NCBI GenBank assembly: GCA_900757695.1 | Contig: CAAEOU010000104.1 | Span: 1 to 7,216, forward strand | Length of the DNA: 7,216 nt | DNA from: an uncultured Oscillospiraceae bacterium | GTDB taxonomy: Bacteria; Bacillota_A; Clostridia; Oscillospirales; Oscillospiraceae | Direction of reading: 5' to 3' | Shown: piece after piece, positions 1 through 7,059 of the stretch | Position numbering within the stretch: the first letter of the stretch is position 1 | Layout: every line of letters begins with the position of its first letter | The notes under the pieces: model-generated | Databases searched by the model: none | What the model was told of the DNA's origin: nothing | Seen by the model: only the letters and a program-made list of their open reading frames with translations | Program-made: the position numbers and the translations under genes

Positions 1-555
1 AAAGTCTGCCGCTGCAATGGGATCAAGCTGACTGGTCGGTTCGTCCAGAATGAGCACACTGGGCTGCATCGCCATGATAGACGCCAAATTCAGGAGCTGC
101 TTCTGCCCGCCGGACAGCTCCGTGACGTTCTTGTAGAACCAGGTCTGAATGCCGAAAAAGGAGGCCATCTCAGCCACCCGGCGCCGGATGGTAGGCGTGT
201 CATACCCCAGGCTCTCCAGGCCAAAGGCGAGTTCGTGCCACACCTTGTCGGTGACAATCTGGTTTTCGGGGTCCTGCTGCACAAAGCCGATTCCGGCGCT
301 CTGCTCCCTCTGATCCAGTTCTTCCAAAGGGCGCCCCTCGAAACGGATGCTTCCCAGCCTTCGGCCGTGGGGCGCCAGCACCGTCTTGAGCTGTCGCAGA
401 AGCGTGGATTTCCCACACCCCGACGGGCCGCACAGCACCAGGAATTCCCCCTGCTCCACGGTCAGCGTCAGATCGTCCAACACTTTCTCTGTCCGCTCCG
501 GGTAATAAAAGGAAAAATGTTCAATTTCTATGTATGGTCTTTTCTGCTCAGACAC
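1..555 (-). CDS. ecfA: ECF transporter ATPase (EcfA), 3' end cut by window
   Basis: The 185 visible residues are an ABC ATPase of the energy-coupling-factor type, which powers vitamin or metal uptake together with EcfT and a substrate-binding S component at the membrane. Visible in order: Walker A GPSGCGKST (residues 43-51), Q-loop QQDPENQIV (93-101) with the DPENQ sequence typical of ECF ATPases, ABC signature LSGGQKQ (147-153), and Walker B VLILDEPTSQLDP (167-179). The H-loop and C-terminus lie beyond the left edge. The GTG start is chosen because GGAGG (564-568) precedes it by 8 bases and because residues from here match the usual short N-terminus. It overlaps the upstream gene by 8 bases, so coupling is likely. 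It could be a single A subunit or the first half of a fused A-A' protein. The family is certain; the substrate (corrinoid) is inferred from the neighbours only. Confidence 0.93.
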   Translation of the reverse strand, partial: MSEQKRPYIEIEHFSFYYPERTEKVLDDLTLTVEQGEFLVLCGPSGCGKSTLLRQLKTVLAPHGRRLGSIRFEGRPLEELDQREQSAGIGFVQQDPENQIVTDKVWHELAFGLESLGYDTPTIRRRVAEMASFFGIQTWFYKNVTELSGGQKQLLNLASIMAMQPSVLILDEPTSQLDPIAAADF

Positions 556-1534
556 CCATCTTTCCTCCCTGCTGAAATAGTCTTGCCTGTGCGGCCATGG
601 CCTCCGCCCGGGACATACGCCCGCGGGAGGACAGCTCATGGGTCAGGTAGCGCGGGCCAATCTGCTCCAGAACCGGAAGAATGGCGGGATCCGTCCAAGG
701 CCGGTGCTGGTCAATCTGAAGGATGTGCTGGTAGCTCACCCCGAAGCGCTCCCCATAATCCTCCGGCAACCCTGCCGGCAGTAAGCCGGTGCGGGCCTTC
801 ACATATGCCCCGCTCAGGGACTGGTGCAGATGAACGCCCCGCACCCACGTTGCCAGGCTGCCATGCCGATTCAGCATGCGCCGGATATAGTCCGCTCCCT
901 CTGCCTCACTCTTCAGCCCGGTGCAGGCATTCATCAGGTGTCCGGTATCCAGCAGGATCCCTTTCCCTGCAAAACGGATTCCCTCCAGCAGGCGGACGGT
1001 TTCCTCCGGCTCCGTAAACGTAAAGCCGGGCCACCACTGGTTTTCCACAAGGAATTCAAAGGGCCATGTTTCCGTGCCCAGAATGAGGTTTATCACCTCC
1101 ACCGCCGCATCAGTGACCTCTTGATTGGTGTGCAGCCAGTGGTAGGTATACCCTTCCTCAATTGAGACATCCGATACATGAAAGACCACATAGTGGGGAT
1201 TCAGCCCTGCCGCGCGCCGCAGATCCGCCCGGTACTGCTCCAGCAGTGTCTCCGGCCCTGGACCGCCGTAAAAGCGTGCCGCAGCATCCAGTGAACCGAA
1301 TTTTCGCTTCAGCGCCCTCCGGTCATCCCGGTAGAAGTCCAGCCAGTCCGGATAGAAGGTGAGGTGATAGCCGATAACCAGGTCTGCTGGCAAATCCTCA
1401 GGAAATTCCTCACCGCTCCAGATACCCTCCATGCCGTCGCATCCCAGAGCTGCCAGCTCCGCCCGCAGGTCGCCCCAGCCGTGGTATTCTTCAAAGCTCC
1501 CCGAATACAGCGGGAGGCTCATTGTTTGGTACAT
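548..1534 (-). CDS. Xylose-isomerase-like TIM-barrel hydrolase (AP endonuclease 2 superfamily), possible CbiR-type cobamide remodelling enzyme
   Basis: A 328-residue soluble protein without signal peptide. It has the metal-site pattern of the sugar-phosphate isomerase/AP-endonuclease-2 TIM barrels: FHVSDV (H119), FLVENQWW (E164), LLDTGH (D196, H199), GVHLHQ (H235, H237) and THE (H299, E300). These would bind one or more divalent metals at the barrel mouth. CbiR, described from Akkermansia muciniphila, belongs to this superfamily and cleaves the nucleotide loop of cobamides so the lower ligand can be exchanged. The riboswitch, transcobalamin-like proteins and ECF genes around this frame make that role attractive, but it is inference; a sugar or inositol isomerase, or an endonuclease, remains possible. 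The start at 1534 has GAGGTG (1540-1545) 5 bases upstream and overlaps ecfT by 16 bases. An alternative ATG at 1522 would give an ATGA overlap but lacks a well-placed ribosome binding site. The longer open frame up to 1747 is antisense-free but lies inside ecfT and is not needed. Confidence 0.85.
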   Translation of the reverse strand: MYQTMSLPLYSGSFEEYHGWGDLRAELAALGCDGMEGIWSGEEFPEDLPADLVIGYHLTFYPDWLDFYRDDRRALKRKFGSLDAAARFYGGPGPETLLEQYRADLRRAAGLNPHYVVFHVSDVSIEEGYTYHWLHTNQEVTDAAVEVINLILGTETWPFEFLVENQWWPGFTFTEPEETVRLLEGIRFAGKGILLDTGHLMNACTGLKSEAEGADYIRRMLNRHGSLATWVRGVHLHQSLSGAYVKARTGLLPAGLPEDYGERFGVSYQHILQIDQHRPWTDPAILPVLEQIGPRYLTHELSSRGRMSRAEAMAAQARLFQQGGKMGV

Positions 1535-2439
1535 GGCTGCACCTCGTTTTCTTTGCGCAGCACTCCCCACTCCCGGTCCGCGCGTATATTCAGGATAACC
1601 GGCATCAGGCACAAAGCCAGATACACTGCTTGAAGGCAGACGGTCATCGGTGTCAGCGGCACTCCTCTCGCCGTAGGATAATAACGCCAGTAAAAGCCCT
1701 TTGCCGCCGCGCCGCAGCAGAGGAAAAATCCGCAGTAGAGCAACCATGAAAGTGCCGATTGATCCCGGCTGTCAAACCGGTAGATGGAAAATGCTGTCCG
1801 TCCAGGCAGCCCATACCCACGGCTTTTCATGCTGTCCGCTGTTTCAATCGCACTCTCCAAGCTCCATGTCACCATAATGGAGAGGATCGTAATTGCATTG
1901 CGAAGCCGCCGGAGCACCCCACCATTAGAGACATCCCGGCCAATACACCGTTGGGCCTCTGATACGACCTGAAGCTGCGCTTGGAATTTTGGTACAAAGC
2001 GCAGTGTCATACTCAGGACGAGAGAGAGGGCCGGAATAACGCGCCCGAATAGGTACACGAACTTGTCCGAGGTCATGACCGCCGTATAGCAGGAAAACCA
2101 TGTGACAACCGCCGCCAGCATGGCCGCTGCCGCCGCTCCATACAGGATACTCTCCAGCGTCAGGGGATTCCCGGAGGGCAGATAGGTCAAAATCGTGGCT
2201 CCCTCGTGGTTGAACGCCGGGTTAACCAGGGCGGCAACCACCATCATGGGGAGCATATACAACAGACTGAAGCGCACTGCTCGCCGTCCGTTCAGGTATA
2301 CGGCATAGACCAAAGCGGAAGCCAGAGAAATCGCCAGCGAAACCGGGTGCATCAGAAACATGGTAAAAGCAATTACCAATCCAAAATACAAAAAGTTTAT
2401 AATAGGGTGATAGCTGGAAAATGTATCCCTGTATTGAAT
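1519..2439 (-). CDS. ecfT: ECF transporter transmembrane component EcfT, unusual start
   Basis: About 306 residues if begun at the ATT discussed below. EcfT is the membrane coupling subunit that transmits ATP hydrolysis by EcfA to the S component. The sequence shows an N-terminal RDTFSSYHPIINFLYF stretch typical of the family, several hydrophobic membrane segments, and the two cytoplasmic coupling-helix motifs: AQRCIGRD (about 162-169) and ADSMKSRGYG (about 201-210), the latter carrying the diagnostic Ala-x-x-x-x-x-Arg-Gly. A hydrophobic C-terminal pair of helices follows. No ATG, GTG or TTG lies in frame upstream of the conserved N-terminus; the first is a TTG at 2391, inside the first membrane helix. 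GGAAGGG (2447-2453) stands 7 bases before ATT 2437-2439, so ATT is the best-supported start on sequence grounds. An ATG at 2446 is in a different frame. The 3' end overlaps the TIM-barrel gene by 16 bases. Function is confident; the start is not. Confidence 0.87.
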   Translation of the reverse strand: MQYRDTFSSYHPIINFLYFGLVIAFTMFLMHPVSLAISLASALVYAVYLNGRRAVRFSLLYMLPMMVVAALVNPAFNHEGATILTYLPSGNPLTLESILYGAAAAAMLAAVVTWFSCYTAVMTSDKFVYLFGRVIPALSLVLSMTLRFVPKFQAQLQVVSEAQRCIGRDVSNGGVLRRLRNAITILSIMVTWSLESAIETADSMKSRGYGLPGRTAFSIYRFDSRDQSALSWLLYCGFFLCCGAAAKGFYWRYYPTARGVPLTPMTVCLQAVYLALCLMPVILNIRADREWGVLRKENEVQPCTKQ

Positions 2440-2446
2440 AAGGCAT

Positions 2447-2453
2447 CCCTTCC
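2447..2453 (-). promoter_or_regulatory. Ribosome binding site for ecfT pointing at ATT
   Basis: GGAAGGG on the minus strand lies 7 bases before an ATT codon (2437-2439) that opens the conserved EcfT N-terminus. It directly abuts an out-of-frame ATG (2444-2446), which leaves that ATG no usable spacing. Confidence 0.5.
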
Positions 2454-2455
2454 AG

Positions 2456-2507
2456 ACGTGGGGCGCGGTGAGGCGCCGCGCCCCACGTAAATTTTTTATT
2501 AGTTTTT
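2456..2507 (+). terminator. 13-bp hairpin with T-tract on the plus strand
   Basis: The arms ACGTGGGGCGCGG (2456-2468) and CCGCGCCCCACGT (2476-2488) are exact inverted repeats around a 7-base loop. On the plus strand they are followed by AAATTTTTTATT and a second T-run to 2507, the form of an intrinsic terminator. No plus-strand gene ends here, since every gene around it is on the minus strand. On the minus strand the hairpin sits between the DUF2284 frame and ecfT with no T-run after it. It may stop antisense transcription, or act in the sense transcript as a processing or stabilising hairpin. Confidence 0.7.
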
Positions 2508-2522
2508 CACGAAAATAGCGTG

Positions 2523-3044
2523 TCAGTTCACCAGAAGTCCGCCCATGAGAGTCAGGTACTCCGGCACTTCGCCGTTATGACTCCAAACTATGGGGCGTCC
2601 AAAATACAGCTCCATGGTTTTCCCGCTGTCTCCCCCAAGGACGTTGAAGGAATAGCGCGTCTCCTCCGGCCAGGGGCTCCCGCATGTCCTGATGCAGTTG
2701 TCTCACACAAGCTGCATCCGCCTGCGGAATGTGCCGACGTATGGGGAGACTTTTTCCCTGTTCAACAGCTCCGCCATCATCCCCGCCTTCTCTTCCCGCA
2801 TTCCCCGTATCAGCACCGGAAGCGTTTCATCCGGGGATGGGTGCAGTATACGCGCAAACAGCGTCAGATGGTTAAATTGATGTCAGAGCTGCAGCGGCTG
2901 AAAGGAAAAGGGCGGGCAGGACCACCGCGTGTTATAGCTGCTGCACTCCCTGCAAAATCCCAGAAACCGCTCTACATCTACACAGCGTTCGGTATACTCT
3001 TTTACAGAAACCTTCGCCTTTCCTGTTTCCACCACATATGGCAT
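2523..3044 (-). pseudogene. DUF2284-type cysteine-rich metal-binding protein with two in-frame TGA codons
   Basis: One continuous frame of 173 codons resembles DUF2284, a family of small proteins with clustered cysteines thought to bind metal, often found near corrinoid or redox genes. The N-terminal part has FLGFCRECSSYNTRWSCPPF (residues 28-47), the hallmark CxxC...WSCPPF pattern. TGA interrupts at codon 54 (2883-2885). The same frame then continues recognisably (HLTLFARILHP), meets a second TGA at codon 114 (2703-2705) just before DNC, and ends with the conserved RYSFNVLGGDSGKT and LPEYLTLMGGLL tail before a final TGA. The second cysteine cluster is eroded: GSPWPEETRYS stands where the family has a Gly-Lys-Pro-Cys-Arg type motif. 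The ATG at 3044 matches the family's N-terminus. A TTG at 3074 overlapping the upstream stop (TTGA) is an alternative start. Most likely a decayed gene; recoded TGA is less likely because neighbouring genes use TGA as stop and TGG for Trp. Confidence 0.75.
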
Positions 3045-3070
3045 AAAGTCAAGCTCGCTTCCGTCTGTAC

Positions 3071-4036
3071 TCAACCGCCGGTGGAATAGAAGCCGCCCAC
3101 ATCCACACCCAGGTCACAGGTGTAGACCCACTCTATCGTATCGCCCTCTTTGAGCTGATAGCGGGAACAGCCATAATTGGGGAACCAGCCGTTCACCTTA
3201 TACATCCAGCCGGACAGCTCTCCGCAGTCAAATTCATAGAGGTTGTTAATCCCCTCAATATAGGCGGAGTTGTACATCGGTGTATCCTCAAACTCCATGT
3301 GGATGCCGGCCTTCCGCATCTCACGTTGGAGCACATTGAACACACTTTCACCCTCGTAGAACGTAACGGTCGTCGCAGGGAATATGACTCCGTCTTCCGG
3401 CACCAGCTCCACTTTTTCCGGGTCCAGCCAGTCAATGTTGTCCAAAATAGTATTGCAGCGGACAGAGAGCGTACAGGTATGGGTCACATCGGAGAACTCT
3501 ACATCCTGCGGCTCCACCGGCAGGGGCTTTCCTTCCGGCACTGGATCCGTAAGATACTTGTCCTTTCCAGTCTCCGGATTGATCTCCATGCCGTTGGCCT
3601 CTGAGTATTCCTTGTCTCCCTTTTCCACACCGGCGGAGGAGCCGCCCGCAATGGCTTCTGCCGCCGCAATTTTTTCCTCCGCCGTCATTCCGCCTTCCAG
3701 CCCGCCGGGCCGGGATGCCAGCCCCTCCGGCGAAGGCGTTGGTGTCTCTGGAGCCGCAGACTCCGTGGGTGCAGGAGTTTCCGAGGGCTTCGGGGTTCCC
3801 GGAGACGCAGGGGTTTCCAAAGCCCCTGCCGTCTCCGTCGGCTCTGGGCTATTGCCATCTTTCCCTGTTTCCTCTGGTGTTTGGCTGGGCTGTATGCTCT
3901 CCAGCACCGGGCTGCTCTCGCGGACGCCTACTGTCCATCCCTGGAGTCCCGGTGCATTGCCACCATACCAAAAGGCCGCCGCCAGGATCACCAGGATAGC
4001 CAGCGCCCCGATTACCTTCCCCTTCGTCAGCTTCAT
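3071..4036 (-). CDS. Membrane-anchored DUF4430 / transcobalamin C-terminal-like domain protein
   Basis: 321 residues. A short cytoplasmic N-terminus (MKLTKGK) and one membrane helix (about residues 8-24, no lipobox) tether it facing outward. A Pro/Thr/Glu/Ser-rich linker spans roughly 40-115, long enough to cross the cell wall. The C-terminal 185-315 is a DUF4430 domain, the family that shares the beta-domain fold of intrinsic factor and transcobalamin: TCTLSVRCNTIL (187-198), GESVFNVLQRE (229-239), then SGWMYKVNGWFPNYGCSRY (275-293) and EGDTIEWVYTCDLG (297-310), the family's strongest signature. In animal B12 carriers this domain closes over the cobalamin. The start ATG shares an ATGA overlap with the preceding stop, so translation is coupled; GGAGG is 16 bases upstream. 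Proposed role: ligand-binding partner of the barrel protein encoded upstream. DUF4430 also occurs in non-B12 contexts, so the ligand is inferred. Confidence 0.88.
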   Translation of the reverse strand: MKLTKGKVIGALAILVILAAAFWYGGNAPGLQGWTVGVRESSPVLESIQPSQTPEETGKDGNSPEPTETAGALETPASPGTPKPSETPAPTESAAPETPTPSPEGLASRPGGLEGGMTAEEKIAAAEAIAGGSSAGVEKGDKEYSEANGMEINPETGKDKYLTDPVPEGKPLPVEPQDVEFSDVTHTCTLSVRCNTILDNIDWLDPEKVELVPEDGVIFPATTVTFYEGESVFNVLQREMRKAGIHMEFEDTPMYNSAYIEGINNLYEFDCGELSGWMYKVNGWFPNYGCSRYQLKEGDTIEWVYTCDLGVDVGGFYSTGG

Positions 4037-4344
4037 TTCTTTTCTTCACCGTCCTCCTGCGGCATATACAGGCAGTAAGCCGGACACAGTTCTCCCATAT
4101 AGATCCACACGTTTTCGCCCATATCAATAGGTTCAGAGAACGTCAGATTCGGAATCAGGAGCTTCAGTGTAGTCCGTTTGCGCCCACTTATGTTCACACC
4201 TTCCGCTGTGGGCGTCTTCTGGAATTCCTCCACTCGTTGGGACAAATCCGGAATTGCCAGCTCCCGTGCAAGTTTGGGCAGAACCTCTTCTTTCCGACAG
4301 CACACCACATTATTCTGGTTCCTGAACCAGCTCTGATTCAGCAT
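4033..4344 (-). CDS. Small cysteine-containing protein of unknown function
   Basis: 103 residues, no signal peptide and no membrane segment, so probably cytoplasmic. I do not recognise a family. It has a CC pair (15-16) followed by KEEVLPKLARELAIPDL, and near the C-terminus GELCPAYCLYMP with C87 and C91. The tail is acidic/lysine-rich (EDGEEKK). ATG 4344 is preferred because AGGAG (4356-4360) lies 11 bases before it. A GTG at 4356 in the same frame overlaps that site and has none of its own. It ends in an ATGA overlap with the DUF4430 gene and begins 28 bases after the SLH barrel gene stops. This places it firmly in the operon, between the two proposed extracellular binding proteins. Confidence 0.72.
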   Translation of the reverse strand: MLNQSWFRNQNNVVCCRKEEVLPKLARELAIPDLSQRVEEFQKTPTAEGVNISGRKRTTLKLLIPNLTFSEPIDMGENVWIYMGELCPAYCLYMPQEDGEEKK

Positions 4345-4371
4345 GGTTCTTTTCACTCCTATACAATAAAT

Positions 4372-6048
4372 TTACAGCAGATTGGCACTGCTTAAAAGGT
4401 TGAACAGCATCTGGGCCACTTCAGCCCGGGTTACAGCCTCCAGGGGCCTGATGTTCAGCTCAGCCTGGTCCAAAATTTTCTCCTGATAGCAGAATGCCAG
4501 TGGAGCGCGGGCCCATTCGGCGGTACCCATATAATCAGGGAACTGCGCCAGCATATTTCGGGTTGCTGCATTGTCCATTTCTGTCTCCAGTCCGCACAGC
4601 TTGGCTGCACGGGAAACCATTACCGCGGCCTCCTGGCGGGTGATCGTGCCGCTGGGGTTGAACCGGCCGTCTCCAACTCCGGTAATAATGCCGCAGGAAT
4701 AGGCTGTCCCCACATAGGGCGCATACCAGGCCTCTGCGGCAACGTCAGAAAAGCTGTTCTTCCCCTCCGGTGTGAGCCCGAGTGCCCGCACCACGATTGC
4801 AGCAAATTCGGCACGCGTCATGCTTCCCTCCGGGTCAAAGCTTCCATCGGACTTGCCGTCAATAATGCCGCGGGCGGCCAGCGCCTCAATGGCAGGCTGA
4901 TTTTTATGGGCATTGACCCCGGTAATGTCATCGAATGTTTTGCCCATCTGAGTGATAGGGCTGGAATGGACTGCCGGATCTTTCCCCTCCAATCCCGCTC
5001 CTTTGGCAGGACCTGTCGCCGGTCCGTCTGGGATGGTTCGGGCATCGCTCATCCGGTAGAGGCTGTTTCTGCCGTCCTGAAGCCGCTGGGCGGCAATAAG
5101 GCCATAGAACGCCTGCTCCGATGCCATCTGATTGGAGCCGGAGCCGTCTGCCGTGTGCAGGAACCCGTTTCCGGGCAGATAAAAGGTCATCAGATTGTCC
5201 AGGAGCGTGTTTCCGTTTTTGACAAAACGGGGGTCGTCCAGCGGAATTCCCAGCTCGCACAAAGCTACGATAATCTGGACACAGCTCTCGGAATTCTTAG
5301 TCCCCCAAGAGGAAAAACCGCCTTCGCTGTTCTGCTTCTTGGACATGCACGCCAGCGCTTCCTCCGTCGCCTTTGCCACTGCTGGCTGATCCTGATACTT
5401 GGCCAGCGCCTGCAGCGCCATCCCTGTGATGTCCGGGTCGGATACGCCGTCTCCGGAGGATGCCGCAGAGGTTCCTCCGAAAAGGCTCCACCCTCCGTCA
5501 GGCAGCTGGCACTCCAATATGCGGTCTATGTACATCTGCCGGGTCGCCTGTGTCTCTGCCCCTGGGTTTTCCGGCATGGGGTAATCTCTGGAGTCGAGCG
5601 CAATCAACGCCCAGATGGGGCCGTTAAGGCCCTGCCAGATGGTCTTGTCATAGTCGCCCAGCGGTTTAGTCAGGTCATATCCCCCCACATTTCTGGCGTC
5701 CTTCCCAATCGAGCTGAGGGCGACAATCACCCGGGAATACTCCGTATATTTCTTATCGTGCAGCTTGCCGTCGCAGGCCTTCACATATGCCTCCACAGTG
5801 GCATAGTAGTCCTGATAATAGCTGTCCGGTACATCGTACCCGCTCCGGGCCAGCCCCAGCACAGCCCATTCACCGCCGATAGACCCTACCTGCGGATCCT
5901 GTACGGTGCGGTACATATATTCTGCGGTATCCTGCACCGCATCGTTCAAGGTCTCTTTGGATACGGCCGCCTGTGCTCCCGTCAACAGGCCTGTGGTCAG
6001 GGACAGGGCAAGCACAAATGCGAATCCGCGCTGTTTCCATTTCTTCAT
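4372..6048 (-). CDS. Secreted alpha/alpha-barrel (prenyltransferase-repeat, transcobalamin alpha-domain-like) protein with three SLH repeats
   Basis: 558 residues from ATG 6048, which follows AAGGAG (6058-6063) by 9 bases and opens a clear signal peptide (KKWKQR, a hydrophobic core, cleavage near AQA/AV at 27/28). Residues about 30-330 form repeated helical hairpins of the squalene-cyclase/prenyltransferase-like fold: GGEWAVLGLARSGY (58-71), NGPIWALIALDSRDY (142-156), LPDGGWSLFGG with DPDITGMALQAL (182-215), SEGGFSSWG (241-249) and a last repeat around 295-323. The alpha domain of intrinsic factor and transcobalamin has this fold. A Gly/Pro/Ala linker (about 340-370) leads to three SLH repeats (about 371-425, 433-485, 503-553), each with a TRAE or TRQE motif near its end. 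SLH repeats bind pyruvylated wall polymers, so the barrel is displayed on the cell surface. It carries no terpene-cyclase acid motif that I can see, which favours binding over catalysis. Confidence 0.9.
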   Translation of the reverse strand: MKKWKQRGFAFVLALSLTTGLLTGAQAAVSKETLNDAVQDTAEYMYRTVQDPQVGSIGGEWAVLGLARSGYDVPDSYYQDYYATVEAYVKACDGKLHDKKYTEYSRVIVALSSIGKDARNVGGYDLTKPLGDYDKTIWQGLNGPIWALIALDSRDYPMPENPGAETQATRQMYIDRILECQLPDGGWSLFGGTSAASSGDGVSDPDITGMALQALAKYQDQPAVAKATEEALACMSKKQNSEGGFSSWGTKNSESCVQIIVALCELGIPLDDPRFVKNGNTLLDNLMTFYLPGNGFLHTADGSGSNQMASEQAFYGLIAAQRLQDGRNSLYRMSDARTIPDGPATGPAKGAGLEGKDPAVHSSPITQMGKTFDDITGVNAHKNQPAIEALAARGIIDGKSDGSFDPEGSMTRAEFAAIVVRALGLTPEGKNSFSDVAAEAWYAPYVGTAYSCGIITGVGDGRFNPSGTITRQEAAVMVSRAAKLCGLETEMDNAATRNMLAQFPDYMGTAEWARAPLAFCYQEKILDQAELNIRPLEAVTRAEVAQMLFNLLSSANLL

Positions 6049-6736
6049 ATGACGAGTCTCCTTCTGCTTTTTCTTCGGAAGGCCCTGCAGGTTTCCCCCA
6101 GGCACTGAGCCAATAGCTCCACAAATGCTTCATGGCCAGCTTGCTAAGGACAGGTATACCCATCAGCTCCATGGCCCTTTTATTGGTGCATCGCTTTTTT
6201 TGAAACAGCTTCTTGAGCTCCGGCGGGATTTCTTCTTCCTCCGGTGGGCGCCAGCTCTTTCTGACAAGCCCGCACATGCGTTCTGCCAGTTCTGCCTCCC
6301 GCTCCGTCAGGGGAGAACCAATCCGTTCACAATACGCCCTGAATCCGTCAGCGGATACCCGCTCCGGCCAGTCTGGCGGCCACCGCTTTTGCTCTTCCAG
6401 CCTCTTCCGAAATCCTCTGGCCGCCCAGCAGGCTTTATTGATGTTTCCAAACCGCTGCTTCAAATAAACCTGGCGAATGGGACTGAGCTGATATGTCCGA
6501 GGCTTATGCCCCGGATGGTCCATTGTCACCACCACAGCCTCCAAAAGCGCCTCATCCGTATAGCTCTCATAAATCTGCCGGCCAATATTCCCTTTGGGGT
6601 CAAAAATTCTCCACAGGTCCGGATCCATCGCCTGTCTGGAAGTTCCCTGCTCTCCCCGGCTTTCCTCGTCCAGCTCTGAGAGCCACTGGCGGTATCCCCG
6701 CAGCTCTTTTTCCGTCAGCTTTTGCTCTTTGAGCAT
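5870..6736 (-). CDS. Unrecognised protein with possible homing-endonuclease-associated repeat; 3' end overlaps the next gene
   Basis: First gene after the riboswitch. ATG 6736 follows GAGGTGAG (6744-6751) with good spacing; an upstream in-frame extension to 6823 would run through the expression-platform hairpin and is rejected. The frame gives 288 residues. It is rich in Glu, Lys and Arg and has no signal or membrane segment. Residues 61-108, including DEALLEAVVV, LSPIRQVYLKQRFGNINKA and CWAARGF, loosely resemble the small DNA-binding repeat found beside homing endonucleases, where a helix pair ends in an F-G-x-x-x-x-A pattern; this is a weak call. An acidic run PPEEEEIPPELKKLF follows at 164-178. 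The last 59 residues overlap the signal-peptide region of the SLH barrel gene in another frame and read like an antiphase shadow. In the third frame a TGA overlaps that gene's ATG (ATGA), so a small 3' frameshift may have removed the original stop. The true protein is probably about 210-230 residues. Confidence 0.68.
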   Translation of the reverse strand: MLKEQKLTEKELRGYRQWLSELDEESRGEQGTSRQAMDPDLWRIFDPKGNIGRQIYESYTDEALLEAVVVTMDHPGHKPRTYQLSPIRQVYLKQRFGNINKACWAARGFRKRLEEQKRWPPDWPERVSADGFRAYCERIGSPLTEREAELAERMCGLVRKSWRPPEEEEIPPELKKLFQKKRCTNKRAMELMGIPVLSKLAMKHLWSYWLSAWGKPAGPSEEKAEGDSSYEEMETARIRICACPVPDHRPVDGSTGGRIQRDLERCGAGYRRIYVPHRTGSAGRVYRR

Positions 6737-6759
6737 TATACCGCTCACCTCAACAAGTA

Positions 6760-6908
6760 AAGGCACGCTCTCCCATTGGGTGAACGTGCCTTGTATCGGT
6801 ACATCCCACCCATTTTTCCACAATCAGGTCTTGCCGACTGGACGGCGGGGGCAGGCCCGTACCGGTTTCCCGGAGTTTCACCCAACTGTGTTTTCTGTTT
6901 GATTGTGG
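6760..6908 (-). promoter_or_regulatory. Putative cobalamin-type riboswitch (compact) with hairpin expression platform
   Basis: A 9-bp closing helix pairs CCACAATCA (6900-6908) with TGATTGTGG (6818-6826). Inside are elements of the cobalamin aptamer: GGGTGAAACTCC (near 6871-6882; compare the GGTGAAA loop), a C-rich loop CTGCCCCCGCC closed by ACGG/CCGT (compare CCCGCC in L5), and AGTCGGCAAGACCTG (6825-6839), close to the B12 box. An extra CCGG-GAAA-CCGG tetraloop hairpin lies between the first two. The usual 5' GGTGCC partner is not evident, so it would be a short or variant class. Downstream, AAGGCACGTTC/GAGCGTGCCTT (6760-6792) forms an 11-bp hairpin followed by TACTTGTT. It sits just before the ribosome binding site (6744-6751) of the first gene, so it could act as a weak terminator or control access to that site. 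The corrinoid-linked genes downstream support the reading. Confidence 0.6.
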
Positions 6909-6911
6909 GCA

Positions 6912-7059
6912 GGGCCGCCCGGCAGGTCGAATTCGGTCTGCCGGGCTCCTGCTCGAGTAAGGAGGGGCTCCCTCTATCCTTACCGGGGGAGCCCCCATAC
7001 AGCCCGGCCTGGTTTTGCAGACCGGAGCCAAACGGGGCCTTTATGGTTCTTCCAGAGTC
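6912..7059 (-). other. Leader and intergenic region with strong hairpins, no gene seen
   Basis: Between the SLH gene stop and the aptamer three stable hairpins can be drawn. CCGGTCTG/CAGGCCGG around CAAAAC spans 7004-7025. GGGGCTCCC/GGGAGCCCC spans 6964-6995. GCCCGGCAG/CTGCCGGGC around a GAATTC-centred loop spans roughly 6917-6946. The middle hairpin may end the SLH transcript although its T-run is poor (TCCTTAC). The last one could belong to the riboswitch as a peripheral stem. I see no convincing promoter, although one for the operon is expected in or near this stretch. Confidence 0.5.
6964..6995 (-). terminator. Possible terminator hairpin of the upstream SLH gene
   Basis: A 9-bp GC-rich stem with a 14-base loop begins about 65 bases after the SLH stop codon. 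It is followed by TCCTTACTC rather than a clean T-run, so termination would be weak. An alternative fold uses GTAAG/CTTAC (6957-6983) plus GAGGG/CCCTC inside it and excludes the first. Confidence 0.4.

Follow-up and report, generated by a model that had tools for sequence, protein, structure and literature searches.

The DNA analysed here is a stretch of 7,216 nt (hereafter the window; positions 1-7,216 of contig CAAEOU010000104.1, assembly GCA_900757695.1, of which 1-6,908 are displayed) from an uncultured Oscillospiraceae bacterium. It represents one operon of a Flavonifractor relative, which very probably captures and imports corrinoids, the B12 family, in this monoderm gut bacterium. All of the operon genes lie on the minus strand, and in the order of transcription they comprise a small open reading frame (ORF), a secreted alpha/alpha-barrel protein with S-layer homology (SLH) domains, a 107-aa ORF, a membrane-tethered DUF4430 (transcobalamin C-terminal-like) protein, a DUF2284-like gene remnant, the transmembrane protein EcfT, a TIM-barrel protein and an EcfA-type ATPase. 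An earlier note on this DNA had named the SLH-anchored barrel, the tethered DUF4430 protein two genes on, EcfT, the TIM barrel and EcfA, all of which are confirmed; its gene list was incomplete in that the remnant before EcfT had been missed. The proposal of corrinoid capture and import made in the same note is strongly supported by three lines of evidence: the B12 riboswitches that accompany such genes, the CbrT-like S component encoded by relatives, and structural models which resemble B12 carriers.

The association with B12 riboswitches was assessed by the kind of co-occurrence survey that the earlier note had called for. In 60 relatives, we compared matches to the DUF4430 profile with matches to the riboswitch model RF00174 that lie on the same strand and at most 15 kb ahead of them. 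DUF4430 was matched 63 times, in 38 of the genomes, and RF00174 135 times; 29 of the 63 were preceded by a riboswitch in this manner, compared to 0.56 expected from a density estimate, an outcome that favours corrinoids as the substrate. As controls, riboswitches of the opposite strand gave counts of 2 upstream and 0 downstream, and those of the same strand gave 2 when counted downstream. A hand count which leaves out four riboswitch and two DUF4430 rows below cut-off gives 25 of 61, and within genomes that have any riboswitch match the linkage amounts to 29 of 42. Among 16 genomes reached via the TIM-barrel search, 29 of 43 DUF4430 matches are linked within 20 kb, below-cut-off rows included. 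Counting only the DUF4430 gene that belongs to the TIM operon, the linkage holds in 11 of these 16 genomes; it fails in G064, G073, G074 and G075, and in G068, where RF00174 has no match anywhere. Finally, a phylum sample of 119 genomes contains 85 DUF4430 matches in 37 genomes; at least 36 of these matches, in at least 16 of the 37 genomes, have a listed riboswitch no more than 15 kb ahead of them.

Two observations of the survey stand on their own. The nearest genome, Flavonifractor plautii ATCC 29863 (G001), carries 18 RF00174 matches (17 over cut-off), the most among the 60 relatives, the next highest number being 10. In several distantly related genomes, small DUF4430 frames of ~140-210 aa have their match at a distance of ~300-560 bp behind a B12 riboswitch (G030:C8, G043:C3, G048:C26, G050:C18, G054:C19, G056:C40 and others).

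An Rfam scan of the window itself returned no riboswitch and no other match; the right end of the window falls within the operon, the head of which lies beyond it. The F. plautii genome contains a 7-kb copy of the operon with 98% identical DNA (L007) and a second copy with ~80% identity (L008/L034). Upstream of the barrel gene in L007, on the same strand, are a small HNH_repeat-type ORF, an ORF of ~500 aa and a 1772-aa SLH protein with a DUF4430 domain, and ahead of these genes, at the contig start, is an RF00174 B12 riboswitch (357-613, same strand, 40.1 bits, gathering threshold 31.5). The second copy displays two such riboswitches (L034:103-296, 107.5 bits, and 855-1111, 39.2 bits). Riboswitches at the operon head would be expected to repress the operon when B12 is plentiful. 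Both F. plautii copies break off at the same point of EcfA, which is where their contigs stop, and the remaining part of the operon was therefore read in other relatives.

The EcfA-type ATPase of the window (1 to ~555, minus strand; ABC_tran 98.6 bits) is likewise cut by the window end. Its best NCBIfam model is the energy-coupling factor (ECF) ATPase TIGR04520, at 154.5 bits under the model's own cut-off, for a gene truncated by the window. No S component is found within the window. In the relative L022, EcfA opens a chain of 879 aa in which two ABC domains are joined to an S component; such EcfA-EcfA'-S fusions of ~880-940 aa occur in L022, L037, L041 and others, and the modules are encoded by separate genes in more distant relatives. 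When the S component of L022 was compared with the PDB, a single chain was retrieved at E <= 1, namely 6fnp (E 2.6e-5), which the parts of the source covered identify as ECF-CbrT, a B12 transporter (PMC5997447).

EcfT itself (1519 to ~2442, minus strand) matches the CbiQ model with 31.3 bits (cut-off 25); the ORF list places its start at 2391, and the homologues point to ~2442, the frame being open upstream. This match would also fit a system in which the ECF module imports cobalt, another metal or another vitamin, with riboswitches that mirror the cobalt supply and surface proteins that serve the S-layer or bind glycans. B12 riboswitches do control cobalt importers as well, as reported for CbiMNQO of C. 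difficile in the portion of that source covered here (PMC11477304), and the S component also matches S models of the riboflavin type. We consider this explanation very unlikely, given that CbrT is the only PDB match of the S component and that the best structural matches of the DUF4430 model are B12 carriers.

The latter comparison is based on structure predictions of single domains, which were compared by Foldseek and VIA-align. The DUF4430 protein (321 aa; 3071-4036, minus strand; hydrophobic stretch at residues 8-26) is a member of PF14478 (67.7 bits, cut-off 23.8), and it is predicted to adopt the beta-domain fold of the B12 carriers: the first 17 Foldseek rows and the first 14 VIA-align rows are all haptocorrin, transcobalamin or intrinsic factor. 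The barrel protein (559 aa; 4372-6051, minus strand, ATG at 6051) bears C-terminal SLH domains (107.4 bits) and shows Pfam matches of the squalene-cyclase type, all below cut-off. Its signal peptide was read by eye, no segment having exceeded the hydrophobic-stretch threshold. The barrel model has a mean pLDDT of 90, and of its 23 Foldseek rows with E <= 0.001, 8 are transcobalamin chains. When the DUF4430, barrel and TIM-barrel proteins were searched against the PDB by sequence and by profile, the B12 carriers were not reached.

The earlier note had gone further and suggested that the barrel and the DUF4430 protein together form a two-part trap. In our estimation, the chance that the separate halves bind one corrinoid jointly is about even. 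The conserved adjacency of the two genes and the existence of single-chain forms fit this suggestion, whereas the structural neighbours of the barrel weigh against it: VIA-align ranks terpene cyclases before transcobalamin for the barrel model. Gene order was examined in 80 named loci around homologues of the TIM barrel, which belong mostly to Oscillospiraceae and kin and are in many cases cut by contig ends. DUF4430 was matched in 32 of these loci, the barrel in 26 and an S component in 29, and the full order barrel(-107aa)-DUF4430-EcfT-TIM-EcfA is present in 17. The barrel and DUF4430 share a single open frame in 10 of the 80 loci, and in nine of the 10 the DUF4430 domain follows the barrel, as it does in intrinsic factor.

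We also chose by hand 20 further loci from the relatives and the phylum, 16 of which possess ECF genes together with an S component; a TIM-barrel match occurs in none of the 20. Riboswitches accompany several of these distant operons: RF00174 is found in L117, L118, L120, L121 and L122, whereas L135 has one of the AdoCbl-II type; the Rfam scan, which covered eight of the 20 loci, gave no B12 riboswitch in L123 or L131. L135 contains a 578-aa single-chain barrel-DUF4430 frame (5256-6989) followed by ECF genes, with the AdoCbl-II riboswitch (4067-4141, 38.7 bits, cut-off 36.5) 1.1 kb before the frame, and this is the closest thing in the present analysis to a bacterial one-chain transcobalamin. 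In L123, a 739-aa open frame (9616-11832, minus strand) unites an S component, a hydrophobic segment, an alpha/alpha barrel and SLH domains; it is a single case, which could also represent two abutting genes.

Nearly as credible as joint binding is an arrangement wherein corrinoid uptake is real and the two surface proteins act independently. The DUF4430 protein might then be the sole B12 binder, or each of the two might pair with the giant barrel-DUF4430-SLH proteins encoded upstream, leaving the barrel with a role at the wall or some other function. Such independence would be in keeping with the many small DUF4430 genes located ~300-560 bp behind a B12 riboswitch, with the ECF operons L117, L118 and L128, in which DUF4430 is present with no barrel match, and with the giant upstream proteins, which already combine both domains. 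It accounts less readily for the barrel gene standing shortly before DUF4430 in all 17 full-order loci, for the barrel match in 13 of the 16 further loci that bear ECF genes, and for the L123 frame.

The third claim of the earlier note, lower-ligand remodelling inside the cell, concerns the TIM-barrel protein (548-1534, minus strand), a member of the AP endonuclease 2 superfamily which is possibly CbiR-like; its PF01261 score of 29.4 bits is just below the cut-off of 31.1, and a homologue in L030 reaches 48.5 bits. The family profile aligns with E. coli endonuclease IV at an hhalign probability of 91.5. In a family alignment of 33 rows, His119, Glu164, Asp196, His199 and His235 are invariant in all 33, and they align with His109, Glu145, Asp179, His182 and His216 of endonuclease IV, which are among its nine metal-ligand positions.

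Some homologues of the TIM barrel are located beside genes for cobamide synthesis. In L030, the gene lies downstream of a B12 riboswitch on the same strand as cobU and cobS (identified by Pfam) and a CobC-like phosphatase (recognized by eye); in L061 it follows cobT-cobU-cobS, and in L109 it is divergent from cobU and cobS. In addition, CobS is encoded in all seven TIM-bearing genomes of the 60 relatives, compared to 22 of the other 53. CbiR, an enzyme of Akkermansia that opens cobamides so that the lower ligand can be exchanged, is a member of this superfamily as well and has conserved His, Asp and Glu residues; 80% of its homologues adjoin cobamide genes (PMC7733943, in the parts covered). 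Because the five metal ligands are kept and a few homologues stand beside cobamide genes, a CbiR-like role is plausible, and we somewhat favour the view that the enzyme is a cobamide hydrolase.

Several observations weigh against this view. For the other four of the nine ligand positions of endonuclease IV, the alignment offers no invariant partner, although the invariant His57, Asp275, His277 and Glu300 are candidates. Of the seven TIM-bearing genomes, five belong to one genus, in which 19 of 20 genomes contain CobS. Furthermore, when the nearest genes shown were checked in 34 hand-picked TIM loci (33 of them without a DUF4430 match), CobU or CobS was matched near the TIM gene in only two, L061 and L109, and the eight of these loci that were searched for a B12 riboswitch contain none. 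The enzyme could instead be sugar-phosphate isomerase-like or catalyze a reaction other than cobamide hydrolysis, an alternative that we rate only a little lower; endonuclease IV, xylose isomerase and further isomerases and epimerases of sugars all belong to this superfamily (PMC7733943, in the parts covered). The invariant endonuclease IV-type ligands, the cob genes adjoining the homologues in L030, L061 and L109, and the CobS distribution, reduced as it is by the single genus, speak rather for the hydrolase. Remodelling stands as plausible only, with the metal ligands and the cob-gene neighbours in its favour and the scarcity of such neighbours among the picked loci against it.

Taken in sequence, the proposed events would begin at a surface layer of corrinoid-binding modules, to which the giant SLH proteins would contribute together with the barrel protein on the wall and the DUF4430 protein on the membrane. 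The bound corrinoid would be handed to a CbrT-like S component and imported by the dedicated ECF module, after which the TIM-barrel protein, as a putative metal-dependent hydrolase, would probably process the cobamide that has entered, with its lower-ligand side as the likeliest target. The most complete version of this scheme, a split transcobalamin in which the wall-bound barrel and the membrane-bound beta domain each grasp one face of a corrinoid and close on it across the gap between wall and membrane, and in which foreign cobamides would lose their lower ligand to a co-expressed cobamide phosphodiesterase on entering by CbrT-like import, is put forward only tentatively. If true, the split trap would constitute a prokaryotic counterpart, possibly of ancestor type, of intrinsic factor.

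Systems of this general kind have been predicted before. Burroughs et al. 2007 (PMC1796856), in the parts covered here, describe how transcobalamin-like domains and toroids of low-GC Gram-positives are encoded together with CbiO and CbiQ, in operons that often specify a second transcobalamin-like protein; they predicted B12 scavenging and proposed a transfer to animals. Like those systems, the present operon combines a surface beta-grasp (SLBB) domain, an alpha/alpha toroid partner, a CbiO-like ATPase and a CbiQ-like protein. Unlike them, as far as those parts describe them, the barrel and the SLBB domain are here separate proteins with different anchors, relatives have a CbrT-like S component in one chain with the ATPase, and the operon includes a gene for a TIM-barrel protein; linkage to B12 riboswitches is not mentioned in the same parts of that article. 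The evidence presented here is stronger than that for the 2007 prediction.

The vertebrate carriers intrinsic factor, transcobalamin and haptocorrin also consist of an alpha/alpha barrel and a beta domain, the folds here being predicted ones; they are single secreted chains, whereas the window encodes the two parts in two genes, with single-chain relatives in related operons. ECF-CbrT (PMC5997447, in the parts covered) shares with the present system the ECF module, and an S component that matches 6fnp is present in the relative L022; the system described here differs in its dedicated ECF genes within the operon, the EcfA-EcfA'-S chain of close relatives, and its dedicated surface proteins. The TIM barrel, compared with CbiR by description only and from a source covered in part, is like it in its superfamily, in its conserved His, Asp and Glu residues and in the location of some homologues near cobamide genes, and unlike it in that the gene sits in an importer operon. 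As far as the open-licence literature searched here shows, the split two-anchor arrangement, the quantified riboswitch linkage, the fusion of a CbrT-like S component to the ATPases and the embedding of the TIM enzyme in the operon are new. The interest of the system lies in the fact that, among the open-licence PMC papers searched, most of them judged from the listing, we found no experimental test of B12-family capture by transcobalamin-like surface proteins of Gram-positives, nor of B12 binding by a bacterial DUF4430 protein.

With respect to the remaining features of the operon, the overlapping gene ends described in the earlier note hold for three junctions, namely 107-aa ORF/DUF4430 (4 nt), EcfT/TIM barrel (16 nt) and TIM barrel/EcfA (~8 nt), and not for the barrel gene and the 107-aa ORF, which do not overlap. 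The 107-aa ORF (4033-4356, minus strand) has homologues in 3 of the 80 loci; its Pfam match as an 'Intracellular delivery domain' was below cut-off and was set aside. Elsewhere in F. plautii, a homologue is located directly behind a B12 riboswitch (L033:124-342 and 570-878). NCBIfam provided no name for the TIM-barrel, EcfT, DUF4430 or 107-aa proteins.

The DUF2284-like remnant (2523-3074, minus strand; PF10050 21.9 bits, below the cut-off of 25) is wedged between the DUF4430 gene and EcfT and contains two in-frame TGA codons. The F. plautii copies show a similar-sized gap at this position, and L037, the nearest locus of Intestinimonas, leaves no space for it. We considered the two TGA codons as possible selenocysteine codons and judged decay, by eye, to be more likely, because the second motif is degraded and the stretch is absent from that Intestinimonas locus. 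Between the remnant and EcfT there is a hairpin (2456-2488) of 15 pairs (12 GC) with a loop of 3, which scored as terminator-like on the plus strand, i.e., opposite to the operon. A scan of the window for promoters and terminators gave six promoter-like sites (3.0 expected) and five terminator-like sites (7.5 expected) and was not used.

The small upstream ORF (~6200-6823, minus strand) bears a weak resemblance to HNH_repeat (E 0.053). Its frame, 5870-6823, encodes 317 aa in the window, whereas the counterpart in the 98% identical DNA of F. plautii has 219 aa; the two frames differ near the 3' end, which may be real or due to a sequencing error. Proteins with HNH_repeat, the homing endonuclease associated repeat, are also found near B12 riboswitches at the operon head (L023:4721-5299 and L007:1018-1308).

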